NCBI GenBank assembly: GCA_027618565.1
Contig: JAQCEQ010000012.1
Coordinates: 1-62,091 of the forward strand
Origin: Planctomycetota bacterium
GTDB taxonomy: Bacteria > Planctomycetota > Phycisphaerae > Phycisphaerales > SM1A02
Length of the DNA stretch: 62,091 bases
Direction: 5' to 3'
Shown: positions 4,733-48,366 of the stretch, piece by piece
Position numbering within the stretch: position 1 is the first letter of the stretch
How the letters are laid out: the number at the start of each line of letters is the position of its first letter
Made by a program: the position numbers and the translations under genes
The notes under the pieces: model-generated
Databases searched by the model: none
Told to the model about the DNA's origin: nothing
The model's input: the letters and a program-made list of their open reading frames with translations, nothing else

Positions 4733-5296
4733 ATGGGACCAGTTCTTGTCATTGTCCTCGTCGGATTCGCGATCATCCTCTTGGTGGTGATGTGGGCGAT
4801 CGGGATCTACAACTCGCTCCAGCGGCAGCGCTTGACCGTGGACACGGCGTTTGCCGACATCGACACACTCCTCAAGCGGCGGTGCGACCTGATCCCCAAC
4901 CTGGTGGAGACCGTGAAGGGATACGCCGGCCACGAGAAGAGCACCCTGGAAGGCGTCATGCGTGCACGCGCTGCCGCGATGGGCGCGCGAGACTCCGCCG
5001 AGCGCATGAAGGCGGAGGGCGAAATCAGCGGGTTCCTCTCGCGGCTGATGGCCGTGTCCGAGGCGTACCCCGACCTGAAGGCGAACCAGAACTTCATGCA
5101 GCTCCAGGGAGAACTGGGGAGCACGGAGGATGGCATCGCGCGGGCGCGAGGCGGCTTCAACGGGACCGTCCGCACCTACAACGAGACGCTGTCGGTGTTC
5201 CCCAGCAATCTCGTGGGTCGGATGCTTGGCTTTGCGCCGAGAGCATTCTTCGAGGCCCCGACCGCCGATCGTGATGCGCCCAAGGTCAGCTTCTGA
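4733..5296 (+). CDS. lemA: LemA family membrane protein
   Basis: The 187-residue protein has one N-terminal transmembrane helix (about residues 3-24). Then come the LemA signatures IYNSLQRQR, FADIDTLLKRRCDLIPNLV and YNETLSVFPSNLVG, in a four-helix coiled domain. LemA proteins are widespread and their exact role is unresolved; they often sit beside membrane proteases or TPM-domain proteins. ATG 4733 is preferred over ATG 4703 because AAGGA lies 10 bases upstream of it and the longer form only adds a hydrophilic leader. ruvB follows 12 bases downstream, so the two are probably co-transcribed. Confidence 0.88.
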   Translation: MGPVLVIVLVGFAIILLVVMWAIGIYNSLQRQRLTVDTAFADIDTLLKRRCDLIPNLVETVKGYAGHEKSTLEGVMRARAAAMGARDSAERMKAEGEISGFLSRLMAVSEAYPDLKANQNFMQLQGELGSTEDGIARARGGFNGTVRTYNETLSVFPSNLVGRMLGFAPRAFFEAPTADRDAPKVSF

Positions 5297-46864: not shown

Positions 46865-47788
46865 ATGGTGCGCCGGCTGGCCAAGGCGATTCGGGACGCG
46901 GCACGAGGCGTGTCGAGGACAGCCACGAAGGCGGCGGGCGCCCATTCAGCCGCCAGGCTCAAGCGGGCGCAGTGGCGGTATCGACTGCTCACGCAACTTC
47001 CGGACAAACTCACGGGGGGCAAGCTCTCCAGGGCCTACCGGGCGATGGAAGTCGTGACTCGCGAGTGGACCGTAGTGTCTCCGCACTGGCCCGCCGCGTT
47101 CGACGGACTGAGAATCGGCCATGTGACGGACCTCCACGCCGGAGAGCTCATCACCCCGGAGCATGCGGCTGCCATCGTGGGGCGACTCCGGGCACACGAT
47201 GTGGACCTGGCTGTCTGCACGGGCGATGTCACCGATCTGCACCCTGAGCACGCTGCCGAGCCGCTGGACATGCTGGGCCGGCTCGAGGCGCCATTGGGCG
47301 CCTACTTGGTGCTGGGCAATCACGACGAGCTCCTGTGTGCCGATCAGGTCGCCACGATGGCGCGGCGCTCCGGCGTCAAGGTGCTGCGCAACGCGACGGT
47401 GGCGCTGCGGCGGGGCGCAGACGCGCTGCGCATCGGCGGCATCGAGTGGGAACAGACCGTGGCCGCCTGTGCTGGAGCGGTGGACCTGACCTGCACTCCC
47501 TCTGGCGGGAGTCCCCACCTGCTCCTGGCCCACAACCCGAAGGCGTTTCGGCGCGCAGCGGACCTAGGCGTGGCGTTGACGCTGAGCGGGCACACGCACG
47601 GAGCCCAGCTGGCGATCCGCAAGCGGGAGCCTCGATTCCCACGGCGTGCCAGTTGGCGCAGGCTCCACGCCGGGCCGTATTACGAGCGAGACTCGCACCT
47701 GTATGTGTCCAGCGGCGCCGGGAGTTGGTTCCCGGTGCGGGTCAATCGACCCCCGGAGGTGGTGATCATCACCGTCAAAGCAAGATAG
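46865..47788 (+). CDS. Calcineurin-like metallophosphoesterase
   Basis: The 307-residue protein has the five metal motifs in order: HVTDLHAG (DxH), CTGDVTD (GDxxD), LGNHDE (GNHD/E), LLAHNP and LSGHTHGAQ (GHxH). A basic N-terminal helix of about 70 residues takes the place of the membrane anchor in YkuE/YaeI-type relatives, which act on phosphoesters such as UDP-diacylglucosamine. The substrate is unknown. ATG 46865 follows the purM stop by 28 bases. Base composition drops sharply after the stop. Confidence 0.87.
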   Translation: MVRRLAKAIRDAARGVSRTATKAAGAHSAARLKRAQWRYRLLTQLPDKLTGGKLSRAYRAMEVVTREWTVVSPHWPAAFDGLRIGHVTDLHAGELITPEHAAAIVGRLRAHDVDLAVCTGDVTDLHPEHAAEPLDMLGRLEAPLGAYLVLGNHDELLCADQVATMARRSGVKVLRNATVALRRGADALRIGGIEWEQTVAACAGAVDLTCTPSGGSPHLLLAHNPKAFRRAADLGVALTLSGHTHGAQLAIRKREPRFPRRASWRRLHAGPYYERDSHLYVSSGAGSWFPVRVNRPPEVVIITVKAR

Positions 47789-47971
47789 TTGCAAGAAAGA
47801 TCATGTGGAGACAACAGAAACGCATTTTACTTGCACAATTGAGCAGATTATGACGGAGGGCACAGAATTTGTGTTGAGAACCGCTGGATGGGGTCGATTT
47901 CTCTTGGCAAGACGGTCTCTCCGATTGTGCGCGTGCACAGCCGTCATTTTCCCCCTTGTATGGAGGCACTG
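47789..47971 (+). promoter_or_regulatory. AT-richer intergenic region upstream of small membrane peptide
   Basis: The 183 bases are about half A+T, much lower in G+C than the surroundings. They contain two TTGCA(A/C) copies (near 47789 and 47830) and a TGTGC/GCACA stem at 47926-47939. I see no full -35/-10 pair. It probably holds the promoter and leader of the peptide gene. Confidence 0.4.
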
Positions 47972-48202
47972 ATGAAGGCTATGGAAATGTTTAAGGGCTG
48001 GGTCCGCGAGTTCATTGATCTGTTGCTCCTCTTTATCGCCGTTGGCGTGGTGGTGCAGATCGCTTTCGGTAGCAGCGTTCCGTTCTTCGGCGGCATTACC
48101 AACAACCTCATGGCTTTCGTGAGCCAGTTGGGAAGCAACGGTCTTGTCGGCTTGATCGCCCTGCTGGTGATCATCGCCGTGTTCAACAAGCGCACCGCCT
48201 GA
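47972..48202 (+). CDS. Small two-helix membrane peptide, unknown
   Basis: The 76-residue product has an amphipathic start (MKAMEMFKGWVREF), two membrane helices (about residues 15-34 and 52-70), and a basic end (NKRTA). GGAGG sits 5 bases before ATG 47972, which decides the start although the frame is open upstream. By hand count it is about 55% G+C, against roughly two-thirds for its neighbours. It may be a highly expressed or recently acquired gene. A short holin-like or channel peptide would fit, but I do not recognise the family. Confidence 0.65.
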   Translation: MKAMEMFKGWVREFIDLLLLFIAVGVVVQIAFGSSVPFFGGITNNLMAFVSQLGSNGLVGLIALLVIIAVFNKRTA

Positions 48203-48241
48203 CGCGGACGCTTCGCTTCGTTATCTCTGATTGGAACGCCG

Positions 48242-48266
48242 GACGGCCGAGTCACACTCGGCCGTC
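48242..48266 (+). terminator. Hairpin after the small membrane peptide gene
   Basis: A perfect 10-base stem, GACGGCCGAG (48242-48251) with CTCGGCCGTC (48257-48266), and loop TCACA. It is followed by TGTGCGTTT, so the U-tract is weak. It probably ends the transcript of 47972-48202. Confidence 0.6.
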
Positions 48267-48366
48267 TGTGCGTTTGGGGGGAGTGCCGCTGGGAACGGTG
48301 TGTCGCACGCTGCACGAGATCGGGGTTCCTGCCAGGACGCAGGCTCCGCCCGGGCGCGCGGCTGAC

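Follow-up and report, generated by a model that had tools for sequence, protein, structure and literature searches.

A two-helix membrane protein gene with a conserved promoter-like element, inherited in a planctomycete family and with homologues on uncultured viral contigs, some of them T4-like

The described systems closest to the gene treated here are found among small membrane proteins and among promoters of alternative sigma factors. VirB2/TrbC-like pilins have a two-helix architecture, and the late promoter motif of phage T4 is TATAAATA. Class II holins, as defined in PMC9636201, were compared for size, for their two helices and for their N-in/C-in topology; the promoter consensus of sigma-28 (FliA/WhiG), TAAAGWWY-N11/12-RYCGAWRN, is given as in PMC8762339. 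The gene in question encodes a protein of 76 amino acids and lies in contig JAQCEQ010000012.1 of a Planctomycetota bacterium (assembly GCA_027618565.1), of which the 62,091 nucleotides analysed are called the window. Our preferred reading, to which a probability of roughly 0.4 is given, is that the product, under regulation of its own and also carried by phages, is an oligomer that either forms a pore in the inner membrane or organises that membrane. With much higher confidence, the gene is taken as a resident, regulated small membrane protein gene.

A small two-helix membrane protein gene, as proposed in an earlier note on this DNA, is supported by its open reading frame (ORF), by two hydrophobic segments and by homologues, whose absence, together with that of transcription, the note had named as what would speak against it, and which are many. 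The protein has one match in its own genome. Among 61 genomes (60 relatives and its own) 16 match at E <= 0.1, 15 of them counted as real; the match in G022, weak, partial and located in a frame of 407 residues, was excluded. A profile built from these 15 homologues (A1), run against 400 genomes of the order, matched 108: 100 in the taxonomic family of the window genome (f1), each with one match; seven in two other families of the same order (f5 and f6); and one (G029) that was discounted as partial and lying in a frame of 976 residues. The copy in a congener is 97% identical, with 30 nucleotide differences (23 at third codon positions) and two changed residues, and is read as an ortholog under purifying selection. 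A branch with support 100/98 sets the 30 f1 rows apart in the tree, which holds 59 proteins; the alignment has few columns (81) and long branches drew a warning from the tool, so that the inner forks are unsure. The one named relative is a metagenome-assembled genome labelled Planctomycetia bacterium, and a search of plasmids gave only one match (E 8). Judged by these comparisons of sequence, the gene is resident and inherited within f1.

In the phylum 16 of 392 genomes matched; 11 of these lie outside the order, and 10 are convincing (families f15, f38, f48 and f71), the match in G644 being partial and in a frame of 343 residues. Two or more matches are present in nine of these 10 genomes and the tenth (G578) has a pair at its locus; tandem pairs seem to be the rule in these distant planctomycetes. 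The pairs (L075–L084) are of diverged paralogs, perhaps of a two-subunit complex. A profile of 11 sequences, some distant planctomycete members together with f6 members (A3), aligned with A1 at 99.5% over 76 columns.

Homologues are also found on 23 uncultured viral contigs (repeats removed; within L099–L129), that on L129 being a partial match; the 17 phage proteins aligned in A6 are 28–43% identical to the window protein. Cultured phages gave no match by tblastn or blastn. When 10 proteins from four of the contigs were scanned against PHROGs, seven were named and three had no match. L119 has a single-stranded DNA-binding protein just upstream of the copy and a UvsX-like recombinase just downstream, and also a DnaB-like helicase; L101 has a dUTPase just upstream, an endolysin (phrog_894) starting about 1.6 kb downstream and a DNA polymerase further down; L106 has a DNA ligase among the scanned proteins. 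The major capsid family gp23 is present on four of 12 contigs searched. At least some of the viruses are therefore T4-like phages. Gene context varies between the phage copies, at least four kinds being seen. Upstream of the copy in L103 lies a perfect TTGACA-17-TATAAT, with its end at a distance of 34 nt; under a looser rule the same promoter scan found 4 sites, with 3.0 expected. Two perfect TTGACA/TATAAT promoters of host type flank this copy (L103:4875–4903 and 5216–5243).

The family to which the protein belongs has no name in the libraries searched: no match above threshold was obtained in Pfam, NCBIfam, PHROGs, PADLOC or the Protein Data Bank (PDB). By sequence, A1 gave five weak matches in PDB (best E 0.32) and A6 none; PADLOC gave nothing for the window protein (P0001) and three single-member weak matches (best E 0.016) among the 15 A1 proteins. 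No paper was found on planctomycete small membrane proteins or, in combination with gp32 and uvsX, on small membrane proteins of T4-like kind; broader literature searches, judged by titles and the openings of abstracts, brought up work on other small proteins or on phages at large. This does not prove that the protein is unpublished.

Regulation of the gene is suggested by a short motif in its leader. Of 17 diverse leaders, 13 contain CCGAT, with 3.0 expected, a post hoc count since the motif was first spotted by eye; in hold-out leaders, which include genera seen earlier, it occurs in 21 of 24, against 5.2 in shuffles and 5.5 in same-locus stretches. Upstream regions of other genes have it in 18 of 84. 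Positions around it were counted with one genome per genus, in 23 leaders from 21 f1 genera and two f5 genomes: of 21 sites, 15 have a T 22 nt upstream of CCGAT, the frequency in 377 control sites being 0.12 (p = 4e-9), and the base directly after CCGAT is an A at 11 of the 21, against 0.04 in controls. The whole element, T-N21-CCGAT, is present in 14 of 21 genera and in none of 83 control upstream regions; genus g55 was counted by L063, and with L067, which has no CCGAT, the count becomes 13 of 21. In expectation-maximisation motif searches the log-likelihood ratios exceeded, at every width, those of all 12 shuffled sets, but only moderately (width 8: 25.6 against at most 24.2) and with fewer restarts for the shuffled sets. 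The 36 CCGAT sites in the alignment were hand-picked, one per leader. T-N21-CCGAT is regarded, from its recurrence, as a conserved promoter-like element; the consensus scan of 47700–48320 found no promoter of sigma-70 type.

The CCGAT part recalls sigma-28, and with the spacer of the sigma-28 consensus set to 13 nt the leaders of the small-gene family outscore controls (p = 1.3e-6). CCGAT with T at -22 is present in two of 30 flagellin leaders and absent from 28 (one leader per genome, from 30 of 48 genomes with a match; 11 of the 30 from f1), and in none of the three (L172, L176, L182) that come from genera carrying the small gene. A FliA/WhiG-class sigma factor was matched in 61 of 61 genomes (60 over cut-off), so that its presence is uninformative for the element. 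The -10 part is thus sigma-28-like, but flagellin leaders mostly lack the element, which is therefore called the element of an unnamed alternative sigma factor. A flagellar sigma-28 promoter is unsupported within this limited control; the genome of the window has no flagellin match. The FliA/WhiG-class sigma gene of that genome (G000, C13:1229–1897) is present though 12 of 60 relatives, too, have no flagellin match.

The leader and the end of the gene are marked in other ways. The upstream ORF ends at a TAG (47786–47788), and the region described in the earlier note begins right behind it. That note gave the gene about 55% G+C and the 183-base gap before it a richer A+T content, in a window of about two-thirds G+C, which agrees with the measured values of 0.553, 0.492 and 0.667, respectively; windows of 183 nt as AT-rich as the leader number seven of 6191 (steps of 10), and the lowest of those listed overlap the leader. 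The codon-usage comparison that it had proposed, run against a local reference of 37 ORFs chosen by codon pattern, predicts 0.565 +/- 0.015 for the same protein and a third-position G+C of 0.817 +/- 0.044, where 0.803 was found. The lowered G+C of the gene is due to its amino-acid makeup, and the pocket is therefore an AT-rich leader with a hydrophobic protein, without sign of a foreign insert. Compared with the congener without gaps, the leader is identical at 88 of 105 nt nearest the gene and at 21 of 78 further upstream. It holds an inverted repeat, GACGG...CCGTC, that encloses TGTGCGCGTGCACA, is kept in the congener and has a T-run behind it (Table 1).

The ribosome site and the following hairpin, both listed in the earlier note, were likewise confirmed, the stem being measured as one base pair longer than the 10 first given. 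In the 88 nt 3' of the stop codon (48203–48290) the fold has a z-score of -5.14, and none of 200 shuffles folds as well; the stem is kept in the congener with a different innermost pair. The T-run behind it is short (GTTT) and the consensus terminator scan does not list the stem, which is therefore called only terminator-like; Rfam gave one match only (E 0.94, under its gathering score). Among 37 distinct homologous genes of the order, several of them near-copies, a ribosome site of at least four matching bases is found in all 37, and the downstream hairpin beats all 15 of its own shuffles in 35 (exceptions L003 and L031). With a promoter-like element and a hairpin to itself, the gene probably forms a separate transcription unit.

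The protein has two hydrophobic segments without lysine or arginine (K/R), a loop that leans acidic and a basic C-tail. Mean charges in the f1 group (31 sequences, one from f5) are 1.0 K/R and 2.0 aspartate or glutamate (D/E) for the loop, 1.9 K/R and 0.2 D/E for the C-tail, and 2.5 K/R and 2.6 D/E for the N-terminal segment; this distribution suggests that both ends lie in the cytoplasm. All of the 59 proteins compared, from bacteria and phages, have G60, and G57, F32, L61 and V26 are each kept in at least 90%. AlphaFold2 predicts helices at residues 2–35, 37–55 and 59–75. Conservation follows a helical periodicity in segment 37–55 (p = 0.007) and marginally in residues 2–35 (p = 0.05), the p values being uncorrected for the four segments tested.

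From these features the following working is proposed. An alternative sigma factor, under the conditions that it signals, would switch the gene on. The product would run from an N-terminal stretch into helix 1, through a loop on the outside that holds an amphipathic helix, and into helix 2, with both ends probably cytoplasmic; it may assemble in the inner membrane into a homo-oligomer packed via the conserved small residues G25, G33, G57 and G60. Such an oligomer could act on the permeability or the organisation of the membrane, as a small pore or as a membrane patch; a channel is one possibility. T4-like marine phages carry a version of the protein, which during infection would probably act on the membrane of the host. 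A wider claim is doubtful and is put forward tentatively: an undescribed self-assembling two-helix inner-membrane family common to planctomycetes and T4-like marine phages, with a dedicated alternative-sigma promoter, two-paralog pairs in some lineages and capture by phages at least once as a stand-alone gene for control of the host membrane.

Several findings weigh against an oligomeric, separately regulated membrane protein of this kind. The charge evidence for the topology is modest, the N-terminal segment of the f1 group being about net zero and the loop carrying 1.0 K/R. The two membrane helices have no significant helical conservation face (p = 0.20 and 0.23), so that a packing or pore face is unsupported by conservation. 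The AlphaFold2 model is weak (mean predicted local distance difference test score 63.7, predicted template modelling score 0.34), and Foldseek with this model gave no PDB match. Six of 23 leaders have no CCGAT within 200 nt, and the CCGAT of the window sits inside the conserved inverted repeat, so that in this genus a role in leader structure is possible. Many genomes of the order have no match, including that of congener G002 (88% complete), and the gene is thus dispensable for the group.

Table 1 Features of the gene and its surroundings in the window.
Feature	Position	Strand	Basis or remark
Two-helix membrane protein gene (76 aa)	47972–48202	+	ORF reading, homologues, purifying selection
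Ribosome-binding site GGAGG	47962–47966	+	Five bases 5' of ATG; read in the sequence
Conserved leader segment, roughly the 105 nt nearest the gene within the AT-rich 183-nt gap	47867–47971	+	Identity to same-genus relative
Promoter-like element T-N21-CCGAT	47899–47925	+	T at 47899, CCGAT at 47921–47925, 51 nt before the start codon
Inverted repeat GACGG...CCGTC, then T-run	47911–47945	+	Kept in congener; part listed as terminator-like in consensus scan
Hairpin of 11 bp with 3-nt loop, terminator-like	48242–48266	+	Arms exactly complementary; fold z-score

The protein might instead be an accessory subunit, that is, a small protein that binds and regulates a larger one in the membrane (a transporter, or a respiratory or envelope complex) and not a self-assembling pore. 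The tandem pairs of distant planctomycetes suggest hetero-complexes and would fit such a subunit, which is nevertheless considered somewhat unlikely from the surroundings of the gene. When ORFs around 33 loci were compared, each of the five largest groups of similar ORFs overlapped the small gene itself and no widely conserved neighbour was found. At the 18 f1 loci among them the window and its congener share many neighbours, but between different genera two or more nearby ORF clusters are common only to the pairs g5/g7, g34/g54 and g22/g61, and a single one to a few others; no candidate partner recurs widely, although a partner may be encoded elsewhere. The varied contexts of the phage copies likewise speak against a partner gene. 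In genera g34 and g54 a common divergent neighbour of about 800 residues (L057:1957–4386 and L066:4039–6510) lies 281–329 nt upstream of the small gene.

Less likely still is a pore of holin type, whether as a class II holin of phages or as a holin-like membrane protein that the bacterium has domesticated. Size, two helices and the predicted N-in/C-in topology fit class II, copies exist on phages and the L101 endolysin lies in the neighbourhood; the T4 late motif, sought within 150 nt upstream, is found with at most one mismatch in seven of 19 phage leaders, mostly near-copies, against 516 of 2600 random stretches. The exact motif is present in only one of the 19, however, and L103 has its promoter of host type. 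No holin of PHROGs was matched, and Phage_holin_2_4 was reached only at E 8.1 in one of 15 members. No lysis cassette was seen: the endolysin is one of the 10 phage proteins scanned in four contigs, ORFs of similar size in L102 and L117 lying outside the scan, and the close neighbours named in two contigs are genes of replication or nucleotide metabolism. In f1, moreover, the gene is inherited without a widely shared neighbour.

That the protein replaces MscL as a minimal osmotic safety channel was also considered and is improbable. The genome of the window has no MscL match, and among f1 genera 16 have the small gene only, 12 have MscL only and five have both; yet 30 of 100 carrier genomes also have MscL, the pattern by genus may reflect common descent, and the count leaves out genera that have neither gene. 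This complementarity (G029 left out of the small-gene list) is a hint only. Membership in the MscL family (PF01741) was rejected: hhalign with eight planctomycete MscL proteins gave a probability of 0.9% over 14 columns, and no Pfam match was obtained at E <= 10.

Relatedness to the pilins of type IV secretion (VirB2/TrbC-like), without a signal peptide, is very improbable. Weak scores do recur, with TIGR03745 in eight of 15 members (best E 0.0017), NF045849 in one of 15 (E 0.0086), PF11190 in four of 15 (best E 0.056) and PF18895 in one of 11 distant members (E 0.018), but the window protein reaches 15.3 bits where the TIGR03745 cut-off is 52.5. VirB4 (PF03135) was found in none of 41 genomes (its own and 40 relatives), in a search whose control matched in one of 14 named genomes, and the acidic-leaning loop and basic C-tail also argue against a pilin, which was rejected on the score and on VirB4. 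PF18895 was over its cut-off in one of 149 genomes of the phylum and not in the genome of the window; no signal peptide is evident by eye, no predictor having been run.

A recently acquired foreign gene or toxin, as the earlier note had also raised, is hardly credible: the local dip in G+C and the relatives on phages would suit it, but an acquired gene is made unlikely by the local codon usage, the single f1 clade and the third-position changes in a congener ortholog under purifying selection, and for a toxin no supporting find was made, PADLOC included.

Small membrane proteins are easily overlooked in annotation; here the set of homologues, the likely promoter element and the phage copies make direct testing feasible. 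If phages carry a membrane-stress protein of their host, it would be a membrane-acting auxiliary gene; if the protein is a pore, a minimal channel family would be added.

Compared with known systems, the leaders of the small gene share with sigma-28 promoters the CCGAT(A) core, some reading TCAAGTTT-N13-[GA]CCGAT, but have a spacer of 13 in place of 11/12. With MscL the protein shares two membrane helices, an outside loop and a short local AVGVxxxxxFG; it differs in having only some half as many residues as the planctomycete MscL proteins of A2, in lacking most of those that are invariant there and in the low profile similarity given above. With VirB2/TrbC-like pilins (TIGR03745, PF18895, NF045849) it shares the two-helix architecture and recurrent weak scores of hidden Markov models, whereas it lies far under the cut-offs, is encoded in a genome without a VirB4 match, and has basic ends with an acidic-leaning loop. 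Class II holins (for example, phage 21 pinholin S21-68) are alike in their some 70–80 residues, two membrane helices, ends predicted inside and copies on phages; unlike them, the small protein has no family match, was not seen in a lysis cassette, and is the product of a gene that bacteria inherit and that has a conserved upstream element to itself.
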